Shown: in pieces, positions 1 through 10,717 of the stretch
How positions within the stretch are numbered: position 1 is the first letter of the stretch
Layout: the number at the start of each line of letters is the position of its first letter
Assembly: GCA_017450705.1 (NCBI GenBank)
Contig: JAFSTC010000087.1
Coordinates: 1-37,739, forward strand
Direction of reading: 5' to 3'
Length of the DNA: 37,739 nucleotides
DNA from: Lentisphaeria bacterium
GTDB taxonomy: Bacteria > Verrucomicrobiota > Lentisphaeria > Victivallales > Victivallaceae
The notes under the pieces: model-generated
Told to the model about the DNA's origin: nothing
Database searches by the model: none
The model's input: the letters and a program-made list of their open reading frames with translations, nothing else
Program-made: the position numbers and the translations under genes

Positions 1-276
1 CGCAAGATGGACCTGGCAAAAACAGCGGCGCCGGATTGGTGATGCATTGCAAAAATGGCGGGACTGACGATTTCGAGGGGCGTACCCTTCTGCGGTACAC
101 CCCGAGGAAGCGGCTGTTTCGCGCTTTTGCAAGGCGCGCCAAGACAAGTCGGGGATTTTGACTGGGCCATCAATACCCGTATGGTGACGGTGAAGCCGCT
201 GCGGTCTTATTTGCCGTGCGGCCGGGCGACGGCGGACGCACGGATCCCGGCGGATCGGTTCTTCGAAGGCGGATAA
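1..276. other. Left-edge region with no confident gene
   Basis: No start codon with a ribosome binding site, and no recognisable domain, was found here on either strand. One + strand frame is open from the window edge to a TGA at 159-161 and could be the tail of an upstream gene (its text includes NGGTDDFEGRTLLRYTPRKR), but I do not recognise it. Another + frame runs from 55 to 276 and has a composition typical of chance frames in high-GC DNA. Treat this as the 3' flank of an unseen upstream gene plus intergenic DNA. Confidence 0.4.
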
Positions 277-353
277 AAATCCGCTTTTCGAATGAAAAAA
301 TCCGCTTTTCGGACAAAGAAATCCGCTTTTCGGACAAAATAAATCTGCTTTTC
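277..353 (+). repeat. Four phased 14-base direct repeats upstream of the pseudopilin promoter
   Basis: The 14-mer AAATCCGCTTTTCG occurs at 277-290, 298-311 and 319-332, and a variant (AAATCTGCTTTTC) at 341-353. Starts are 21, 21 and 22 bases apart, which is close to two turns of B-DNA, so all copies face the same side of the helix. The last copy ends 12 bases before the -35 hexamer at 366. A stack of activator binding sites is the simplest reading. The spacing and identity are seen directly; the regulatory role is inferred. Confidence 0.75.
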
Positions 354-365
354 ATGTTTTTGCGC

Positions 366-394
366 TTGACAATCCCCGACTTGCGTTATAAATT
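366..394 (+). promoter_or_regulatory. Promoter of the pseudopilin-glycosidase locus
   Basis: TTGACA at 366-371 is followed by TATAAATT at 387-394. The gap is 15 bases if the -10 is TATAAA and 17 if it is TAAATT. The block around it is almost repeated at 7053-7105 in front of the second large glycosidase gene. The leader to the start codon at 495 contains a GC-rich inverted repeat, GCGGCCG...CGGCCGC, near 417-438. Confidence 0.7.
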
Positions 395-494
395 ACCGCC
401 GATATGAGATCGGATGCGGCCGCGGCGAACCGGCCGCGAGTGATCGGACGGGATTTCATTGCAACCGCAATCTTGCATAAAAAGGAGTGTCGGA

Positions 495-1298
495 ATGGAT
501 CGGAAACACAACACATCTTCGTCGGCAAAGGGTTTCACGCTTATCGAGCTCCTTGTCGTCATCGCCATCATCGCCATACTGGCCGCCATGCTGATGCCGG
601 CGCTGCAGAAAGCGCGCAAAAGGGCCAGCAGCATGACCTGTCTCTCCAACATGAGCACCATCGGCAAGGCCCAGGCGATGTATTCCGACGCGAACGAGGA
701 TTGGATCGTCGCGACCAAGACCGGATCGACGGCCAGTTTTTCCGATGCGACACATCCGGCGCTGCGCGCATGGTTTGTCAAACTCATCCCCTACGGCGTC
801 ATTGTCGTAAAAGAGACCAAGACCGGATACGTCAACTTTTTGAAGACCCGCGGGACCGTGGCCTGTCCCAACGAACCCGGCAAATTTTACGGCGACAGCG
901 GTGTGACTTCCGGATATTATTACACGTTCTGCCACTATCTCGCCAACGGTTATCTCTCCGGCGCGAACTGCTCTGCCCTTTCGATCAACTTCAAGATGCA
1001 TAAGGTCCGGGCGGCCAAGCTGCCGTCGAAGGCGTATTTTGCGGGAGACTCCAAACAGCGTGCGTATCCGGCCTACCGGACGAACCTTTCTCTCGGCTTC
1101 CGCGACAACGGCGTCGATGACCGTGTGAACGCCGGTTCCGAATATCCCCTGGCCGGCGGAGGAGACTGCAACATGGCCTTCATGGACGGCCACGCCGGAA
1201 CTCTGAAACTCGACGAGGCCAGAAGCCTTGGAGGCGCCACCGGTCCGCAGGTCGGTCAGAGAGGCGTCAACACCGATGACCTCGGCGTCGATTTCTAA
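495..1298 (+). CDS. Prepilin-type N-terminal methylation domain protein (type II secretion pseudopilin-like)
   Basis: This 267-residue protein begins with a short polar leader ending K12-G13. The hydrophobic stretch [20 protein letters not shown] follows. Cleavage by prepilin peptidase is expected between G13 and F14, and Glu18 is the conserved +5 glutamate. Near the end, [10 protein letters not shown] resembles the processing-associated H-X9-DG region found in pseudopilins of Lentisphaerota and Planctomycetota. The start at 495 is chosen because GGAG at 484-487 lies 7 bases upstream; an in-frame start at 459 lacks this. The protein should be anchored in the inner membrane with a periplasmic globular domain. 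It is the first gene after the promoter at 366 and lies 135 bases before a secreted glycosidase, so a role in export or display of these enzymes is plausible but unproven. Confidence 0.9.
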
Positions 1299-1433: not shown

Positions 1434-4400
1434 ATGAAATCGAGGAAATACTGTCTTTGGGTGTTCCTGTTCGCATTCTGCTGGATGTTCCCGTGCATTT
1501 CTGCAGACAAGGATCTGCTTGGTACGCTCAAACCCGTTTCCGCAGACGCAGTCGCAAAACTGAGAAAAGCCGGATGGCAGATCGATGACTCGACGGAGAT
1601 ACCCTTCGGCTGGTACATCGGCAAAAGCGGCGTCAAAAAACCCGAATACAAAGTCATCAAATCGGGAAACGCCAAAACGCAGATATTCATTCGGGGCGGA
1701 TTTGCGGTGGATGCCACCGTCATCAAGCAGGATCCGTCTCATGAGCTGGCTTTGCTGGAATTCAACGGCAAGGGCATTTGCGAAGGCGCGAATTTCATCT
1801 TTCATCTTGTCCTGATCGATCCCAAAGGCAAAACGCTCGGCAATGCCTCATCCGCATTCCGGATGACCCGCGACTGGAAGCCGTATGTTTTGAAGCTTCG
1901 TATTCCCAAGCGTCCCGACGGCATAAAAACGAAGATCACGCCCGGGTTCTATTCTCCGGAGGGCGTGTACATGGAAAATGTAAGGATCAAAACCGTTCCC
2001 GCGACGGACTCGGCGCAGCAGATACCTCAAAAAAAAAACGCAATTCTTGACTTCGATTTCACCCATGTCGAGGGAAAAACCGAAATTCAGGACCGTACCG
2101 GGAATTACACGCTTTACTCCGATTGCGGAAAATTGAAGGAGGAGCATCACGCTCTGCGGGTATCGCAGGGAGCCCGCTTCCGCATTCCGTGCAAAGACGA
2201 TGCCTTCGGCGAAAAGTTCACGATCAGCGCGTGGATATTGAAGGCTTCTCTCGGGGGGATCTTCCACACGCCAATCCTCTCCAGAGGCTGGCAGAAACCG
2301 ATCATATTTCTCGGTCCGGTCAAAGGCCAGTTCGATTTTGCGTTTTACGTGGATGTCAGACTTCCGGCTTTTGCCACAGGGAACGGCGGCGGACTGCTGA
2401 CCGACGGCTACTACTACAATATGAACATCAAGTACCTCAAACCGGAGTATCTCAAGGCCAAAAACAATTTCCCCCTCGAACTCAATACGTGGCAGCAGGT
2501 CACGGCTGTGTATGATTCCGGTGCCGTCAGAGTCTATCTGAACGGGGCCCAGGTCGGAGAAAATCCGAATCGGTCCGACAAAAAACTGCTTACGTCCGGC
2601 TTGGATCTTTACCTCGGCGCTCATCGCGTCAAGGGAGAGAGAGACAATAAAATCACCGCGGAGATGCTGATCAAGTCGATCCGGGTGGTCGGACGTGCCC
2701 TTTCCGCCGAAGAGATCGCGGCGGACTTTGCGGAAGAGAAGAAACTCATGCCTTTCGGCGAAAGTTTTCCGGATCTCATACGGACAAGGGCCTATTTCCC
2801 GGAGGATATGATGGCGCTGGATCCCGCCATGAAAAACAGACTGCGGCAGACTGCGGCTTTCAAAAAAAAACTGCCGTCCGATCCCTTCGCCGGGAAAAAG
2901 AATATTTCGACCCGCCTGGAATCGTCTCCCGGAAAAGGGCTCAGGCTCTATATTGACGGCAACGTCGAAGCGCCGGTCAACGGGCACGGCCACATCAACG
3001 ACAACGACCATCGGCTTGGTGAATTCGTTTCCGATTTCGCCGCCGCGGGGGTCGACCTGGCGGGATTGGGAAATCCCGGCGTCTGGGTCGGGATCGGCAA
3101 GTACGACTGGAAAGAGCTCGACCGCCGTCTGGCGCTGTATATCAAAAACAATCCCCGCTGCAAGATCGATATTACGCTCGGCACGAGTCCGCCGAGCTGG
3201 TACCGCCGGCAATTTCCCGAAGAGCAGGAGGAGTATTATGTCAACTGGCAAAGACCGGAAAAGAAACGCTGGACCGGTCACGGGGGGTTGCTCGGCTCCG
3301 ACCGTTACCTGAAGGATTCCGTCCGCATGATCGAAGATATCGTGCGGCACATCGAGAACGGACCCTACGCCGCCCATGTCTACGGCTATCTCGTCACCGG
3401 CGGCGATGCCGGAGAATGGTACTGGCCGGGACAGTTTGCGGGCGGGGGTTCCGCGACGGGATACTCCGTTCCGACGCGGAAAGCTTTCCGCGACTGGGTG
3501 CGTCAACATTACAACAACGATGTATCCGCCTTGCGGAAGGCGTGGAACGATCCGCAGCTGGATTTCGACAAGGTGGAGCTCCCGCTTCCGAAAGAGCGTT
3601 TCGCCTCCGAAAATCTTTTCTTCCGCGACCCGGTCAAAGCGGCGGCGGTCATAGACTGCCGGAAGTTTTATCAGGAACGGACCGCCATGAATGCGATCTC
3701 CTATATCAAGGCCATCAGACGTGCCGCTCCCGGCAAACAGATCACGACTTACTACGGCTATCCCATGCTTTATGCGGGAAATCCCGCGCTGGCATTCAGC
3801 GGACTTCAAACGGTCAGCGACATTCTGAAATGCCCGGAACTGAACTGGATCGCCACCCCCATCGATTACAACCAGCGGCGGGGCGGAGACGCCGGTGCGA
3901 ACATCGCCGGGTATATCGGCAGCGCCAAACTTCACGGCAAAGGGATATGGCGGGAAGAAGATATACGCACCCATCTTTTCGAACGTCTGACATCCGGCCG
4001 GACCGGCAGTCTGCGCGAGACCTGTGAGGTGCTCCGGCGCGCTTATGCATACACCATCGCCGACGATTACGGCTTCTGGTATATCTGTCAGTGCGGACTT
4101 CACGGGTATCATCAGAATGAGGTCATGGAAGATGCCGCGCGGATGAAAAAGATCGCCGATGAAGCCGCCCGAACGGACCGCCGGGATATTTCGGAAGTCG
4201 CCATCGTGTTCGACGAGAAGGATTCCCTGAACTTTCTGGCGCCCAAGACCAGCGGCAACGATTTTGTTTCCGAATGCATTTACTGCGTTTTCCGCAAGCT
4301 TCACCGTATGGGTGCGCCGTTCAAACTCTATTTTATCGACGACCTTTCCGATCCGAAGATGCCGGATTACAAGCTGTATATCTTCCTGAACCAGTGGTCG

Positions 4401-5003
4401 GCCAATGCGGAACAGATCTCGGCGATCCACCGGAAACTCGCCAAAAATCACGCCACGGCATTCTGGTGCTATGCGCCGGGGTACCTGGACGGGAAACGCT
4501 TCAGTACGGACAACATGAAAAAACTGACGGGATTCGACTTTCTGGAGGAACGCGCCATGCGTCATCTTTCGACGACATTCGATCCGGCCGGAAAGTTCGC
4601 CAAACTGCCGGCATTGGAAGCGCCCGCCGCCGGGCCCGTGTTCAGCGCAAAACCGGGAAAGGGCGTACAAATCGTCGGAAGATGCGGCAAATACAATACC
4701 GCGGCGATCCTGGACCTGCCGGATTTCCGTTCCGTGTGGTCGCTGCTTCCGCCGAACAGGGAAATGCTTACGGCGCTCTGTGAACTGGCGGGAGTCCACG
4801 TCTATTCGAGAGACGGCGCCACCCTGCTTGCCAATGATTCCTACGTAGCGATCCATTCCGCCGACACGAAACCGGTCGAGATCAAACTGCCGCGGAAAGG
4901 AAACGTGGTGGAATGTATTTCGCAAAAAGAATACGGTGCTGCGGACCGCATAAAATTTACGCCGGAATATGTCGGCCAGACTGCGATATTCAAAATCAAG
5001 TGA
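1434..5003 (+). CDS. Secreted LamG-domain, GH42-like glycoside hydrolase (paralog 1)
   Basis: This 1,189-residue protein starts with a signal peptide (MKSRKYCLWVFLFAFCWMFP, then CISADKD). A beta-sandwich region covers about residues 55-205. A LamG/concanavalin-like domain follows at about 206-433 (FTISAWI, WQQVTAVYDSGAVRVYLNG, LDLYLGAHR). From about 480 a TIM-barrel resembles GH42 beta-galactosidases, including the family-like stretch FRDWVRQHYNNDVSALRKAW. Glu661 in GGDAGEWYWPG is the best acid/base candidate, and Glu841 or Glu842 in WREED the best nucleophile candidate. A trimerisation-like Rossmann region follows (VAIVFDEKDS, MPDYKLYIFLNQW). AGAGG at 1421-1424 and onward supports the start at 1434. 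The substrate is unknown. The same architecture recurs at 7163-10717. Assignment to a numbered CAZy family other than clan GH-A is not claimed. Confidence 0.8.
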   Translation: MKSRKYCLWVFLFAFCWMFPCISADKDLLGTLKPVSADAVAKLRKAGWQIDDSTEIPFGWYIGKSGVKKPEYKVIKSGNAKTQIFIRGGFAVDATVIKQDPSHELALLEFNGKGICEGANFIFHLVLIDPKGKTLGNASSAFRMTRDWKPYVLKLRIPKRPDGIKTKITPGFYSPEGVYMENVRIKTVPATDSAQQIPQKKNAILDFDFTHVEGKTEIQDRTGNYTLYSDCGKLKEEHHALRVSQGARFRIPCKDDAFGEKFTISAWILKASLGGIFHTPILSRGWQKPIIFLGPVKGQFDFAFYVDVRLPAFATGNGGGLLTDGYYYNMNIKYLKPEYLKAKNNFPLELNTWQQVTAVYDSGAVRVYLNGAQVGENPNRSDKKLLTSGLDLYLGAHRVKGERDNKITAEMLIKSIRVVGRALSAEEIAADFAEEKKLMPFGESFPDLIRTRAYFPEDMMALDPAMKNRLRQTAAFKKKLPSDPFAGKKNISTRLESSPGKGLRLYIDGNVEAPVNGHGHINDNDHRLGEFVSDFAAAGVDLAGLGNPGVWVGIGKYDWKELDRRLALYIKNNPRCKIDITLGTSPPSWYRRQFPEEQEEYYVNWQRPEKKRWTGHGGLLGSDRYLKDSVRMIEDIVRHIENGPYAAHVYGYLVTGGDAGEWYWPGQFAGGGSATGYSVPTRKAFRDWVRQHYNNDVSALRKAWNDPQLDFDKVELPLPKERFASENLFFRDPVKAAAVIDCRKFYQERTAMNAISYIKAIRRAAPGKQITTYYGYPMLYAGNPALAFSGLQTVSDILKCPELNWIATPIDYNQRRGGDAGANIAGYIGSAKLHGKGIWREEDIRTHLFERLTSGRTGSLRETCEVLRRAYAYTIADDYGFWYICQCGLHGYHQNEVMEDAARMKKIADEAARTDRRDISEVAIVFDEKDSLNFLAPKTSGNDFVSECIYCVFRKLHRMGAPFKLYFIDDLSDPKMPDYKLYIFLNQWSANAEQISAIHRKLAKNHATAFWCYAPGYLDGKRFSTDNMKKLTGFDFLEERAMRHLSTTFDPAGKFAKLPALEAPAAGPVFSAKPGKGVQIVGRCGKYNTAAILDLPDFRSVWSLLPPNREMLTALCELAGVHVYSRDGATLLANDSYVAIHSADTKPVEIKLPRKGNVVECISQKEYGAADRIKFTPEYVGQTAIFKIK

Positions 5004-5096
5004 CATAATAACTCGGGATCGGCCGGGAAACGTGCCGTTTCGCCGCATTTCAACGATTTGGGATTTTTCCGACCGTCCTGCTCTGAAAGGATCTGT

Positions 5097-7055
5097 ATGA
5101 ATTACGCGCTGTTTTTCGACAATCATACGCCGCCGCTGGTCCATGACGTCGGAAGCCGTTTCGACGCGGATCGTTTCACGGATGAACTGCTACGCTGTCA
5201 TGTGGATCATCTGACGTTTCATGCCCGCTGCAATCAGGGATTTGCGTATTACGACACGAAAATCGGGATCCGGCATCCCGGACTTCAGCCGGGTCGGGAT
5301 CTCTTCGGAGAATTGGCCGACGCCTGCGAAAAGAAAAATATTTCGCTGGTCGCCTATCTGAACGGCGGTCTCAGTCATGCCGAAGGTCAGCGCCACCGCG
5401 ATTGGCTCACGATCGACTGCGAGGGCCGGATCTACCATAAGATAGGCGGCGCCGGTTTTTCTTCGCCCTTCTTCCGGATGATGTGCCGGAATTCCCCGTA
5501 CCGCGATCACCTGATCGACATGATCTCCGAGATCGCTTCACGCTATCCCGTCAGGGGATTTTTCATAGATTGTCTTATCCCGGCGGCGTGTATCTGCCCG
5601 ATCTGCGTGGAACTGATGAAAAAGGAGGGCGTCGACTGGCGGGATCCGGCCGCGGTCAAGGAATTTGCACGCCGTTCCGTACTGCGTCTCTGCCGCGATA
5701 TCGATTCGGCCGTCCGGCAGAAAATCGCGTCGCCCGTCATGTATTTCAACGGTCCGGCGTACGGGACCATGAAGGGTCTGGATACCTATTTCGACTGTGA
5801 ATGTCTGCCCACTGCCGGCTGGGGATATGAATTTTTGCCGGCGGCGGCGCACTATGTGCACGCGCTTCGCCGTTCCGGCGTGGAAGTCCTCAACATGACC
5901 GGCCGTTTTTACGACTGGGGCGACTTCGGAAGTCTGCGTTCCGCTCCGTCCCTGGAATACGATCTGGCATACGGTCTTGCGCATGGTCTGAGGCCGAATA
6001 TCGGCGGACATTTCCATCCGCGCGGCGATCTCGATCAGCCCGTGTTCGATCGCATCGCCGAGGTTTATCACAAACTTCAGCGCTGCGATGCGTATTACCG
6101 CGATGCGCAGAATCTCGCCGATGCCGCGCTGGTCTGTCAGGAAAGCGAACTTCACGATCTTCCCGCCGTCACGGCCGCGATCCGCATGCTGGAGGAGCTG
6201 AAGATCCAGTTCGACGTGGTCTGCGATTCCGATGATCCCGATTTTTCCGCGTACCGTCTGATTATCGTTCCGGAACACGTTTCCCTGTCCGACGACCTCA
6301 AAAAAGCCATTCGGCGCGCAGCCGCTTCCGGATCGTCGATTTTTGCCTGCGGCCGCAACGGAGCGGAGGCTTTCTGTCGGGAACTCGGCGTCGAGTCTGC
6401 GGAGCCCGCGGATTTCACGCCCGTCTATATCCAGCCCGATCAAAAATATGCCGATCGGCTGCCGGAGATGCCTCTTTCGCTTTACGCGGAGGCATTTCAG
6501 GCGGAACCTTCCGTCTCCGGCCGTCCCTCCGGCACCTTGATCCGGCCGTTCAATTCATACGGATGGGACGGCATTGCGGACAATACGTACAATCCCCCGG
6601 AGAGATCGGCGTCCATGCCGCTTCTGATCGAAGGGCCCTCCGGCATTTATTTCGCCGGAGACTTCTTCACCGGGTATTCCATACGCTTTGCCATGCATCT
6701 GCGCAATCTCTTTTCCAACATGCTGAAAAAAACATTGCTGCCGAAGCCCGTTCTCGAAAATATCTCTCTCCCGTCATTCGTCCGTTGTTCCGTAACTGTC
6801 CAGAAGACGGAAAAACGCACCATGGTCCATCTGATATCCTTCATCCCGGAACGCAGGATGGCTGCGAACGTCGTCGAGGAGGGGATCTCCGTCGTCGACG
6901 GCACTTTCCGTCTGCGCTGTCCCGGCGTACCCGGAAAAGTTTATCTTGCCCCGGAAGGCAGGACGGTCCCGTTCGAAATGGAAGAGGGATATGCGGCGGT
7001 GACGCTGCCGCATTTCAAGGGGAGCGCGCTTCTGGTGTTCGAAAATCCGAGCTGA
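5097..7055 (+). CDS. GHL6-like TIM-barrel putative glycoside hydrolase, cytosolic
   Basis: This 652-residue protein has no signal peptide (it starts MNYALFFDNHTPPLVHDVGS). The first ~350 residues look like a TIM-barrel of the hypothetical glycosyl hydrolase 6 (GHL6, alpha-L-fucosidase-like) group. Family-type features are the HARCNQGFAYYDTKIG segment, RGFFIDCLIP and a nearby CICPIC motif at about residue 165. A Rossmann-like domain follows (ALVCQESELHDLP, YRLIIVPEHVSLSDDL), as in GH42 trimerisation domains, with a beta-rich tail. The start at 5097 follows GAAAGGA six to seven bases upstream. Lying 93 bases after one exported glycosidase and directly before the next, it probably acts on imported oligosaccharides, but the linkage is unknown. 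The TGA at 7053-7055 is already inside the next promoter block. Confidence 0.7.
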   Translation: MNYALFFDNHTPPLVHDVGSRFDADRFTDELLRCHVDHLTFHARCNQGFAYYDTKIGIRHPGLQPGRDLFGELADACEKKNISLVAYLNGGLSHAEGQRHRDWLTIDCEGRIYHKIGGAGFSSPFFRMMCRNSPYRDHLIDMISEIASRYPVRGFFIDCLIPAACICPICVELMKKEGVDWRDPAAVKEFARRSVLRLCRDIDSAVRQKIASPVMYFNGPAYGTMKGLDTYFDCECLPTAGWGYEFLPAAAHYVHALRRSGVEVLNMTGRFYDWGDFGSLRSAPSLEYDLAYGLAHGLRPNIGGHFHPRGDLDQPVFDRIAEVYHKLQRCDAYYRDAQNLADAALVCQESELHDLPAVTAAIRMLEELKIQFDVVCDSDDPDFSAYRLIIVPEHVSLSDDLKKAIRRAAASGSSIFACGRNGAEAFCRELGVESAEPADFTPVYIQPDQKYADRLPEMPLSLYAEAFQAEPSVSGRPSGTLIRPFNSYGWDGIADNTYNPPERSASMPLLIEGPSGIYFAGDFFTGYSIRFAMHLRNLFSNMLKKTLLPKPVLENISLPSFVRCSVTVQKTEKRTMVHLISFIPERRMAANVVEEGISVVDGTFRLRCPGVPGKVYLAPEGRTVPFEMEEGYAAVTLPHFKGSALLVFENPS

Positions 7056-7072
7056 TTTTCAAGTTTTTGCGC

Positions 7073-7101
7073 TTGACAACCCCCTGCCCGGGGTATAAAT
7101 T
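7073..7101 (+). promoter_or_regulatory. Promoter of the second large glycosidase
   Basis: TTGACA at 7073-7078 is followed by TATAAATT at 7094-7101, with the same spacing as the promoter at 366-394. The flanking GTTTTTGCGCTTGACAA and TATAAATTAC segments are identical in both. This second copy begins at the stop codon of the preceding gene, so it can uncouple the second glycosidase from the first unit. Confidence 0.75.
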
Positions 7102-7162
7102 ACGCACGATGCGAGTCAGGAGACCGACGGTCCACCGAAAACAACGGAGAAAAATAGAAAAA

Positions 7163-10100
7163 ATGACTTTCAAGATCGTTTCCGCGTCATTGCTGCTTTG
7201 CGCCGCTTTCGTCTGCGTCGGCGAAAGTTTCGAAAAACTCGTTCCCCTGAAGGAAGACCGCAAAACTTCGCTGACCAAAGACGGTTGGACCCTCGGTGAA
7301 AAATGCGCCCTGCCCTACGGCTGGTACATCGGCAAATTCGGTGCAAAAAATCCGGAATACAGGGTCGCCGGATCCCCGGATCCCAAGCAGGGGCAATGCA
7401 TCTTCATCCGCGGCGGCTTCACCGTGGACGCCACGCTGGTCAAGCAGCAGGCGGATCACGAATATGTGGTCATGGAGTTCTCCGCCAAAGCGGAAAACAA
7501 AAATGCCTATATCGTGCTTTTCGCCTATTTGATGGATAAAAAAGGCAAGAACCTGGGTCAGCGCGGTTACAGCAAGGCCATCGGGACGACGTGGGCAAGA
7601 CATCAGTTGAAGTTGAAGATGCCGAAGCGTCCGCCGGGCGTGGAGACCCGGATCACACCGGGGTTCTATTCGCAGCAGGGAATATATCTGGATGATGTGA
7701 CATTCCGTTCGGCATCGGAGAAAGAATTTTCAATTCCTCCCGTGCCGCAAAAAAAAAATGCACTGATGGACTTTGAGTTTTCCGGGGTCGGCGGCAAAAG
7801 CGAATTTGCCGACAGGACCGGAAACTTCACCGTCTATTCGGATTGCGGGAAATTCGTATCTCAGCACAACGCGCTCCGGGTCGCCCAGGGAGCGCGTTTC
7901 CGCATCCCCTGCAAAGACGGCGCTTTCGGCGAGACCTTCACCATCAGCTGCTGGATCAGCAAAGCTTCTCTCGGCGGCCTTTTTCACACGCCGATCCTTT
8001 CCCGGGGCTGGCAGAAACCGGGATCCTATCTGAGCCCCGTCCCGGGGGAATTCGATTTTGCGTTTTATGTGGATATCCAGCTGCCCGGATTTGCCGCGGG
8101 CAGCCGCGACGCCCTGCAGACCAAGGGGCATTATTACAACATGAACATCGGTTATCTTTCACCCGATTATCTGCTGATCGACACGAACAAACCGCTGGAA
8201 CTCAACCGCTGGCAGCAGGTGACCGCCGTTTACGACCGCGGCGCCGTCGAAATGTACCTCAACGGCAAACTCATCGGCAAAAATGCCAGGAAAACCGAAA
8301 AAAAACTGATGACGTCGGGGCTCGATATGTATCTGGGCGCTTTCCGCTGCAAAAACGAACGGGACAACAAAGTCTCCGCGGAGATGCTGATAAAGTCCCT
8401 GCGCGTCGAAGGCCGGGCGCTTTCCGCACAGGAGGTCGCCGCAGATTTCGAGCGGGAGAAAAAGATCCTGCCTTTCGGCGATATTTATCCGGATCTGACC
8501 GAGATCAAGGATTACTATCCCGAAGATATGATGGAACTGGACCGGCCCATGAAAAACCGTCTCCGCCGGACCGCCGAATACAAGAAGGAACTGCCGGCCG
8601 ATCCGTACAAGGGCAAAAAGAACATCACCACCCGTCTGGAAGCCTCTCCCCGGCGCGTCAGTCTGGTGATCGACGGCAAAGTCACCGCCAAAGTCAACGG
8701 ACACGGACACGTTCAGGACAACGATCACCGTCTGGCGGAATTCGTTTCGGACTTTGCCGCCGCGGGGATCGATCTGGCGGGTTCCGGCGTGGGCCCCGTC
8801 TGGCAGGGCATCGGCAAATACGACTGGGAACGGATCGACCGCCGCCTGGAACTTTACATCAAAAACAACCCCCGCTGTCTGATCGACGTCACCATCGGGA
8901 CGTCTCCGCCGCAATGGTACAGAAAACAGTTCCCGGAAGAACATGAAGTCTACCTTTACAAAGGCAAAAACGGCTGGGAAAGACGGCGCTGGACCGGACA
9001 CGGCGGTTTTCTCGGGTCGGACCGTTATCTGCGGGACTGCAGCAAAATGGTGCGCGATATCGTCCGTCATATCGAAAACTCCCCCTATGCGTCCCACGTC
9101 TACGGCTATCTCGTTTCCGGCGGCGATGCCGGGGAGTGGTACTGGCCCGGACAATTCGCCGGCGGTCCCACCGGGTATTCCGTCCCGACGCGGAACGCGT
9201 TCCGCGACTGGCTCAGAAAGAAATACAAAAACGACGTACAGCTTCTGCGCCGCGCCTGGAAATCTCCAGACCTTACTTTCGATACGGTCGAGATCCCCAT
9301 GCCCGAAGAACGCTACAAGTCCGAAAACTTTGCGTTCCGCGATCCGGAGAAGGCCGTTCCCGCAACGGACATGAGGCTCTTCATGCAGCACCGCAACATC
9401 CTCAACATCAGCACGATCATGAGAGGTGTCCGACAGGAGGCCCCCGGGAAACAGCTGACGACTTACTACGGTTATTCCCTGCATTATCTGGGGAATTCCC
9501 TGCTGGGGTTTTCGGGTCTGCAGACTGTTTCCGATATTCTCCGCAGTCCCGATATCGACTGGATCGCCACGCCCATCGATTATCAGCGCAGACGGGGCGG
9601 CGAACCCGGCGTCAATATCGCCGGATTCCTCGGCAGCACCTCACTGCACGGCAAAGGCATCTGGCGGGAGGAGGATCTGCGGACACATCTTTTTCCCCGT
9701 CTGACCTCCGGACGCACCGGCAGTCTGCGGGAAACCAATGAAGTCATCCGCCGCGCTTACGGTTATACCATCGCCGAGGATTACGGCATGTGGTATATCT
9801 GTCAGTTCGGTCTTCACGGATACCATCAGAACGGCATCATGGACGATTCCGCGAAAATGAAGAAAATCGCGGACAAGGCCGCGGCGGATCCCGGAAAGAA
9901 TGTGGCGGAAACGGCTTTTATCTTTGACGAAAAAGATTCCGTCAATTACCTTTGCGCCTACCGTTTCGGCAATTTTTTCGACCAGTGCGGCTTCTATCTT
10001 TTCCGTACCGCCCACACGATGGGGGCTCCTTTCAGACTTTACTTTGCCGACGACATCGCCGATCCCCGGATGCCTGACTACAAACTCTATGTGTTCATGA

Positions 10101-10717
10101 ACATGTGGTCCGTCACGCCGGAACAGAGAAAGGCGATCCACGCCAAACTGCGCAAAAACAATGCGGTGGCCTACTGGTGTTACGCCCCGGGGTACCTCGA
10201 CGGAAAAACATTCAATATGAAAAACATGAAAGATCTGACGGGCTTCGAATTCAGGGAGGAGCGCGCAATAAAGAACCTCAAAGTCGATTTCCTGTCAGGC
10301 ACACCGTTTGCCGAAGTTCCGGCATTGAGCGCGCTCCCCATTGCCCCCGTTTTTTCCGTCTGTCCCGCCCCCGGAACGCTGATCGTCGGCAAAGACGGTG
10401 CATACAACCTTGCGGCAATCAGGAAACATAACGGATTTACCTCAGTCTGGTCTCTGCTGCCGCCGAACCGTAAAATGCTGACGGCTCTGTGCCGTCTGGC
10501 AAAGGTCCATGTCTATACCGATCGCGACACGCTTCTTCTGGTCAACGACAAATATATCGCACTGCATCCGGCGGGAACGGATCCCGTGACGGTGACCTTG
10601 AGAGAGGAGGCGTCCGTCCGGGACATGCTTGCGGAAAAAGATCCGGGGCGGTGCAGATCTTTTGTGTTCAAACCGGAATACAAGGGACAGACGGCTATTT
10701 ACGAACTGAAGAAATGA
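7163..10717 (+). CDS. Secreted LamG-domain, GH42-like glycoside hydrolase (paralog 2)
   Basis: This 1,184-residue protein is collinear with the product of 1434-5003 over its whole length. It has a signal peptide (MTFKIVSASLLLCAAFVCVG), then a beta-sandwich and a LamG domain (FTISCWI, WQQVTAVYDRGAVEMYLNG). A GH42-like barrel follows, with the same candidate catalytic glutamates: Glu658 in GGDAGEWYWPG and Glu836 or Glu837 in WREED. The trimerisation-like domain is also shared. The reading frame is open far upstream, but the promoter at 7073-7101 and the signal peptide place the start at 7163, 13 bases after GGAG. Both paralogs keep their predicted catalytic residues, so neither looks decayed. 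Differences cluster in surface loops and around the LamG ligand face, consistent with related but different glycans. Confidence 0.8.
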   Translation: MTFKIVSASLLLCAAFVCVGESFEKLVPLKEDRKTSLTKDGWTLGEKCALPYGWYIGKFGAKNPEYRVAGSPDPKQGQCIFIRGGFTVDATLVKQQADHEYVVMEFSAKAENKNAYIVLFAYLMDKKGKNLGQRGYSKAIGTTWARHQLKLKMPKRPPGVETRITPGFYSQQGIYLDDVTFRSASEKEFSIPPVPQKKNALMDFEFSGVGGKSEFADRTGNFTVYSDCGKFVSQHNALRVAQGARFRIPCKDGAFGETFTISCWISKASLGGLFHTPILSRGWQKPGSYLSPVPGEFDFAFYVDIQLPGFAAGSRDALQTKGHYYNMNIGYLSPDYLLIDTNKPLELNRWQQVTAVYDRGAVEMYLNGKLIGKNARKTEKKLMTSGLDMYLGAFRCKNERDNKVSAEMLIKSLRVEGRALSAQEVAADFEREKKILPFGDIYPDLTEIKDYYPEDMMELDRPMKNRLRRTAEYKKELPADPYKGKKNITTRLEASPRRVSLVIDGKVTAKVNGHGHVQDNDHRLAEFVSDFAAAGIDLAGSGVGPVWQGIGKYDWERIDRRLELYIKNNPRCLIDVTIGTSPPQWYRKQFPEEHEVYLYKGKNGWERRRWTGHGGFLGSDRYLRDCSKMVRDIVRHIENSPYASHVYGYLVSGGDAGEWYWPGQFAGGPTGYSVPTRNAFRDWLRKKYKNDVQLLRRAWKSPDLTFDTVEIPMPEERYKSENFAFRDPEKAVPATDMRLFMQHRNILNISTIMRGVRQEAPGKQLTTYYGYSLHYLGNSLLGFSGLQTVSDILRSPDIDWIATPIDYQRRRGGEPGVNIAGFLGSTSLHGKGIWREEDLRTHLFPRLTSGRTGSLRETNEVIRRAYGYTIAEDYGMWYICQFGLHGYHQNGIMDDSAKMKKIADKAAADPGKNVAETAFIFDEKDSVNYLCAYRFGNFFDQCGFYLFRTAHTMGAPFRLYFADDIADPRMPDYKLYVFMNMWSVTPEQRKAIHAKLRKNNAVAYWCYAPGYLDGKTFNMKNMKDLTGFEFREERAIKNLKVDFLSGTPFAEVPALSALPIAPVFSVCPAPGTLIVGKDGAYNLAAIRKHNGFTSVWSLLPPNRKMLTALCRLAKVHVYTDRDTLLLVNDKYIALHPAGTDPVTVTLREEASVRDMLAEKDPGRCRSFVFKPEYKGQTAIYELKK

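Follow-up and report, generated by a model that had tools for sequence, protein, structure and literature searches.

A four-copy direct-repeat array upstream of a pseudopilin-glycosidase operon of a Lentisphaeria bacterium as a candidate AraC/XylS-family operator

Analysis of the window, by which we mean the whole stretch of 37,739 nucleotides that makes up an entire contig in the 3.97-Mb draft assembly of a Lentisphaeria bacterium, uncovered an array of four 14-base direct repeats upstream of the promoter of a pseudopilin-glycosidase operon. We interpret this array as a candidate enlarged operator for an activator of the AraC/XylS family, a reading to which the sequence comparisons lead us to assign a probability of about 0.55. 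An AraC-type site appears the most likely kind because direct repeats with a spacing of 20-21 bases specifically adjoin AraC-family genes in the same genome. The repeats, their spacing, the promoter-like sequence, the conservation of the core over the linkers and the genome-wide association of the spacing with AraC genes are all matters of observation. By analogy to known systems the regulator family can be named with moderate confidence, and we infer that an AraC protein binds the array and activates the operon, presumably with a glycan fragment as the signal. The copies are:

277..290, + strand: core copy 1, AAATCCGCTTTTCG, exact match
298..311, + strand: core copy 2, AAATCCGCTTTTCG, exact match
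319..332, + strand: core copy 3, AAATCCGCTTTTCG, exact match
341..354, + strand: core copy 4, AAATCTGCTTTTCA, the promoter-proximal variant, 2 mismatches (12/14)

Exact matching confirmed the first-pass annotation in its description of four 14-base copies starting at 277, 298, 319 and 341, the last a variant, spaced by 21, 21 and 22 bp. These spacings correspond to approximately two helical turns, and the layout is the direct-repeat arrangement of AraC/XylS operators. Tandem Repeats Finder recovered the array with a period of 21, 3.7 copies and a score of 114, against scores of at most 55 in the rest of the window, and identical 14-mer triples at +21/+42 are expected by chance at ~1e-12 in a window of the same composition; a chance origin of the array is negligible. 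When neighbouring copies are compared, 2 of 42 positions are changed in the 14-base core as against 12 of 21 in the 7-base linker (P 0.002 in a permutation test in which the best 14-column window was re-chosen in every permutation), and the G+C part of the core (TCCGC/TCTGC) is conserved to the same degree as the A/T tracts. The conservation of the core fits selection acting on it, with a recent duplication followed by few changes as the alternative. Apart from a short dyad, TCCG-N5-CGGA, within copies 2 and 3 only, the array is a direct repeat and lacks the dyad-symmetric site of a LacI-type operator. GCGGAT, the reverse complement of the ATCCGC of the core, is also seen upstream of the array at 250-255 and 269-274, and positions 269-284 form the dyad GCGGAT-AAAA-ATCCGC. 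A peptide-coding repeat, conceivable given that 21 bases equal 7 codons, was rejected because the last spacing of 22 bases breaks the frame; as an intrinsic terminator the array offers just 5-bp stems, which are weak and at chance level; and an Rfam search for an RNA element gave no match.

The promoters and genes associated with the array are:

349..377, + strand: promoter-proximal block, TTTTCATGTTTTTGCGCTTGACAATCCCC, near-identical in P2 and in a congener
366..394, + strand: promoter P1, sigma-70-type, TTGACA, 17-bp spacer, TAAATT (10/12 consensus bases)
399..413, no strand: CCGATATGAGATCGG, a 5-bp inverted repeat at the presumed start site, separate from the array, read from the sequence
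495..1298, + strand: pseudopilin with N-methylation motif, first gene of the operon (Pfam PF07963)
1434..5003, + strand: LamG/GH42-like glycosidase (domain search)
5058..7055, + strand: GHL6-family glycosidase-like protein (domain search)
7056..7104, + strand: second promoter P2, with the same proximal block and core promoter and no array (comparison with P1)
7163..10717, + strand: second LamG/GH42-like glycosidase, 60% identical to the first (domain search and comparison)

The -35 of P1 (TTGACA) occupies 366-371 and its better -10 (TAAATT) 389-394. Between the end of copy 4 (354) and the TTGACA (366) lie 11 bases, and the -35 therefore begins 12 bases after copy 4, in agreement with the earlier description of an array abutting this promoter; AraC/XylS operators likewise touch the -35 or lie directly upstream of it. 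Taking the transcription start near 401, an assumed position, the four copies begin near -124, -103, -82 and -60. The operon runs from the pseudopilin through the LamG/GH42-like gene to the GHL6-like gene, so that the pseudopilin and glycosidase content attributed to the locus holds in the form of a pseudopilin plus two glycosidase-like genes. No named genome was found to encode a close relative of this pseudopilin. The two LamG/GH42-like genes indicate that part of the locus has been duplicated internally, their promoters being related. A perfect 13-bp inverted repeat (CAAGTCGGGGATT at 145-157, AATCCCCGACTTG at 371-383) connects a dispersed repeat in the left flank to the P1 spacer; it was rejected as a loop operator, given that P2 does not keep its right arm and that the left arm belongs to the dispersed repeat.

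Comparison with P2, which precedes the second LamG/GH42-like gene, and with a promoter in the congener G015 (contig 148) bears on the origin of the array. The latter promoter drives a LacI-family gene, a pseudopilin, a LamG/GH123-like gene and a GHL6-like gene whose protein is 38% identical to that of the window. TTTTCAWGTTTTTGCRCTTGACAAYCCC is common to P1 (349-376), P2 (from 7056) and the G015 promoter, as is TTTTCAWGTTTTTGC adjoining the -35, and copy 4 from TTTTCA onward is shared with both. Matches to TTTTTGC-CTTGACA with 3 mismatches occur far above a reversed-pattern control, and this sequence is in part common to promoters of the family in general. The four-copy array is absent from both P2 and the G015 promoter; the DNA upstream of P2 is coding, since the preceding gene extends to 7055. 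The sharing of the core promoter by P2, which lacks the array, counts against an AraC operator. These patterns suggest that the promoter-proximal part is older and that the upstream copies are later additions, with loss of the array in P2 and G015 as the alternative. In G015 a dyad, CCTAACACGAGTTAGG, lies right after the -10 of the LacI-family gene promoter (stretch ~1470-1560, minus strand); it is likely to be an autoregulatory operator, and the inverted repeat at 399..413 of the window occupies a place corresponding to this repressor-like dyad.

The best-surviving alternative, which we nevertheless regard as unlikely, is that the array acts through intrinsic curvature or as an extended UP element, with phased A/T tracts that bend the DNA upstream of the -35 and stimulate RNA polymerase with no need of a specific regulator. 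The tracts in question are:

273..361, no strand: A/T tracts phased at ~10.3-10.5 bp, computed centres 276.5, 286.5, 298, 307.5, 320.5, 328.5, 340, 350.5 and 359

The array thus has the phased A-tract architecture (~10.5 bp) of such DNA. Its A/T spectral power is 4.27 as against 0.46 in shuffles, none of 5000 of which reach 4.27, and the sharing of TTTTCAWGTTTTTGC beside the -35 by all three promoters is also in line with this explanation. The bend predicted by a wedge model is high but not extreme, its value being reached by 1.6% of 855 other pseudopilin upstream windows and by 5 of 500 shuffles. The conserved TCCGC/TCTGC, however, is not needed for bending, and curvature leaves the link of the spacing to AraC genes unexplained. 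Bending may contribute alongside a regulator.

This link emerged from a census of the genome, which has 72 AraC-family (HTH_18) genes and ~150 pseudopilin paralogs in 4 Mb. The paralogs are often found beside AraC or LacI genes, and most congeners also have dozens of them. A pseudopilin gene is found within 3 kb of 34 of the 72 AraC genes, where density alone would predict ~15, and 13 of these 34 are divergent. For each AraC gene, with the start taken by rule as the most upstream ATG without a gene caller, the 250 bases upstream were searched for the best 14-base direct repeat at each spacing. At a threshold of at least 11 of 14 matches, 10 genes had a repeat at spacing 21 and 4 at 20, compared to 0-3 elsewhere in the range from 12 to 60; at 12 or more matches there were 5 at 21, 2 at 20 and one at 36, and none otherwise between 14 and 39. 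Dinucleotide shuffles gave ~0.56 per spacing and at 21 never more than 3 in 100 rounds, as against the 14 cases observed at 20-21. When only AT-rich repeats were retained, by a filter that was picked after the data were seen and was meant to remove coding periodicity, the counts at 20, 21 and 22 were 4, 8 and 1 upstream of AraC genes (0-2 elsewhere) and 1, 1 and 3, without a peak, in pseudopilin upstream regions. The spacing test on 107 pseudopilin upstream regions gave no clear peak, and 30 AraC genes sampled from five congeners gave a weak peak only, with 2 at 20 and 3 at 21. Several of the AraC-linked pairs sit shortly upstream of a -35 whose -10 follows after a spacer of 16-18 bp, the corresponding gap from repeat to -35 in the window being 11. 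The spacing of the array is therefore that typical of AraC-linked DNA in this genome, and this, together with the direct-repeat layout before the -35, backs the earlier proposal that its geometry fits an activator on one face of the DNA.

Other activator families, namely the LytTR response regulators and the OmpR/PhoB-type, likewise use direct repeats of 21-22-bp period, and no regulator gene that would decide the family was found beside the array in the window. The spacing test, applied to AraC, LacI and pseudopilin genes, ties the 20-21-bp repeats of this genome to AraC genes. In the LacI control, a first run found 4 of 27 genes at spacing 21; upon inspection of a similar set nearly all the spacing-21 matches were G+C-rich and coding-like. 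A site for one of these other families is, next after curvature, a rather improbable reading.

In contrast to the spacing, the repeated word itself does not recur. The exact 14-mer is found nowhere else in the 4-Mb genome beyond the three array copies, there is no other 21-spaced pair in the genome with up to 3 mismatches, and no comparable array precedes any of the 107 other pseudopilin genes examined. Across 33 congeners a single pair match was recovered, inside a coding sequence, and was taken as chance. Because the word and its 21-spaced pairs occur at the array alone, no regulon with the word is visible: the 14-mer is private to one promoter, and the recurrent feature in the genome is the spacing, not the word. 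Consistent with this, none of the AraC-linked pairs closely resembles the 14-mer, and among them two copies are the rule, with none clearly having three or more. The first-pass annotation had suggested that the array may be the recognition site of a glycan-sensing regulator of this lineage and had advised a search for similar arrays upstream of other pseudopilin or glycosidase genes; with the word at one promoter, no linked regulator candidate, and P2 and G015 devoid of the array, such a lineage-wide role is not supported. It had also named what would count against it, namely an array occurring only here or inside unrelated coding DNA together with unaffected expression upon deletion of copies, and since the array occurs only here, the first half of that description applies.

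No AraC or LacI regulator gene was found within the window, whose contig begins 276 bases before the array, inside a dispersed repeat. Positions 1-234 belong to a mosaic, apparently non-coding dispersed repeat family with several copies of >90% identity in the genome and more partial ones; no transposase was seen beside the copies read. The end of contig C88 and the start of contig C53 both carry the first 141 bases of the window without a difference, as happens where an assembly graph branches, so that more than one contig could precede the window and a regulator gene may lie upstream. At the end of C88 lies a same-strand gene for an AIDA/FG-GAP protein, and no AraC gene was found there, the join of this contig to the window being ambiguous. 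Many AraC regulators act on distant genes.

The restriction of the array to one locus and the identity of three cores, as in fresh duplicates, would also be expected of a recent, functionless tandem duplication (minisatellite) that arose neutrally beside a promoter. Arrays with a 21-bp period occur in unrelated genomes too: pattern scans of public genomes and viruses returned two-copy chance or coding matches plus one intergenic array of ~12 copies in a Bacteroidetes MAG, with a unit like CATCCGCTTTTCATTTTCGGA (stretch ~2520-2770, minus strand). The latter was judged a convergence, tandem arrays being common. Against neutral origin, however, are the gathering of changes in the linkers, the agreement with the AraC-linked spacing of the genome, the termination of the array 11 bases short of the -35, and the retention of the proximal block in a congener whose GHL6 gene is merely 38% identical. 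Accordingly, we rank this reading below the preceding two and consider it improbable. A silencer array coated by a DNA-binding repressor is very unlikely: tandem sites can seed repression too, several loci here have a LacI gene immediately before a pseudopilin gene, and G015 has a LacI gene behind a related promoter, but repeats upstream of the -35 are in the usual position of an activator, LacI operators are dyads, and the G015 dyad lies after the -10, outside any array.

The preferred reading of an AraC/XylS-family operator finds parallels in several characterized systems. At Pm, XylS uses two 15-bp direct repeats upstream of the -35, of which the proximal one is filled first (PMC5481539). 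As in the array, these are tandem direct repeats immediately upstream of the -35, in XylS with one subunit per repeat (PMC5481539); unlike it, they number two and carry TGCA/GGTA boxes, as opposed to four copies of an unrelated 14-mer. MtlR of Pseudomonas fluorescens recognizes at PmtlE 15-bp blocks at -72 to -58 and -50 to -36, 22 bp apart and upstream of the -35, with a poly-A tract (PMC4514859). The similar blocks ~22 bp apart before the -35, the A-tract and the sugar-linked nature of the MtlR promoter recall the array, whereas the number of blocks (two against four) and the status of MtlR as a known, footprinted regulator set them apart. At araBAD, the araI1-araI2 sites of AraC are adjacent activator sites by the promoter, both bound with the sugar present (PMC4760080); adjacency and position beside the promoter are shared with the array, and araBAD has in addition a distant looping operator. 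Closest are the AraC-linked repeats of the same genome, which are spaced by 20-21 bp, AT-rich, and in some cases just before a -35 and beside pseudopilin operons; they differ in having two copies as a rule, other words and an adjacent AraC gene. A search of the literature on the control of pseudopilin operons in such bacteria yielded nothing useful. The array is thus best read, by analogy, as a probable AraC-type operator with two copies beyond the usual pair.

Under the AraC/XylS-family interpretation, one regulator subunit would bind each 14-base core, once per 21-base period, and the subunits would stack in tandem along a single side of the helix. The copy nearest the promoter would set the last subunit beside the -35, where it could recruit RNA polymerase to the pseudopilin-glycosidase operon. 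This copy and the core promoter would be the older elements, the upstream copies having probably arisen through tandem amplification of that unit and serving to raise affinity or cooperativity, and the gene for the cognate regulator probably lies at another place in the genome. A tentative and rather doubtful extension is that the four-site AraC-type array arose by tandem duplication of one ancestral proximal site, with subunits polymerising on one face, and that the 72 AraC regulators and ~150 pseudopilin operons are paired by private operator words set in a fixed 20-21-bp geometry. With a fixed 20-21-bp spacing beside AraC genes, operators could be recognized and regulators proposed on the basis of sequence only, and the four-copy locus may serve as an example of how copy number sets the response of a promoter.
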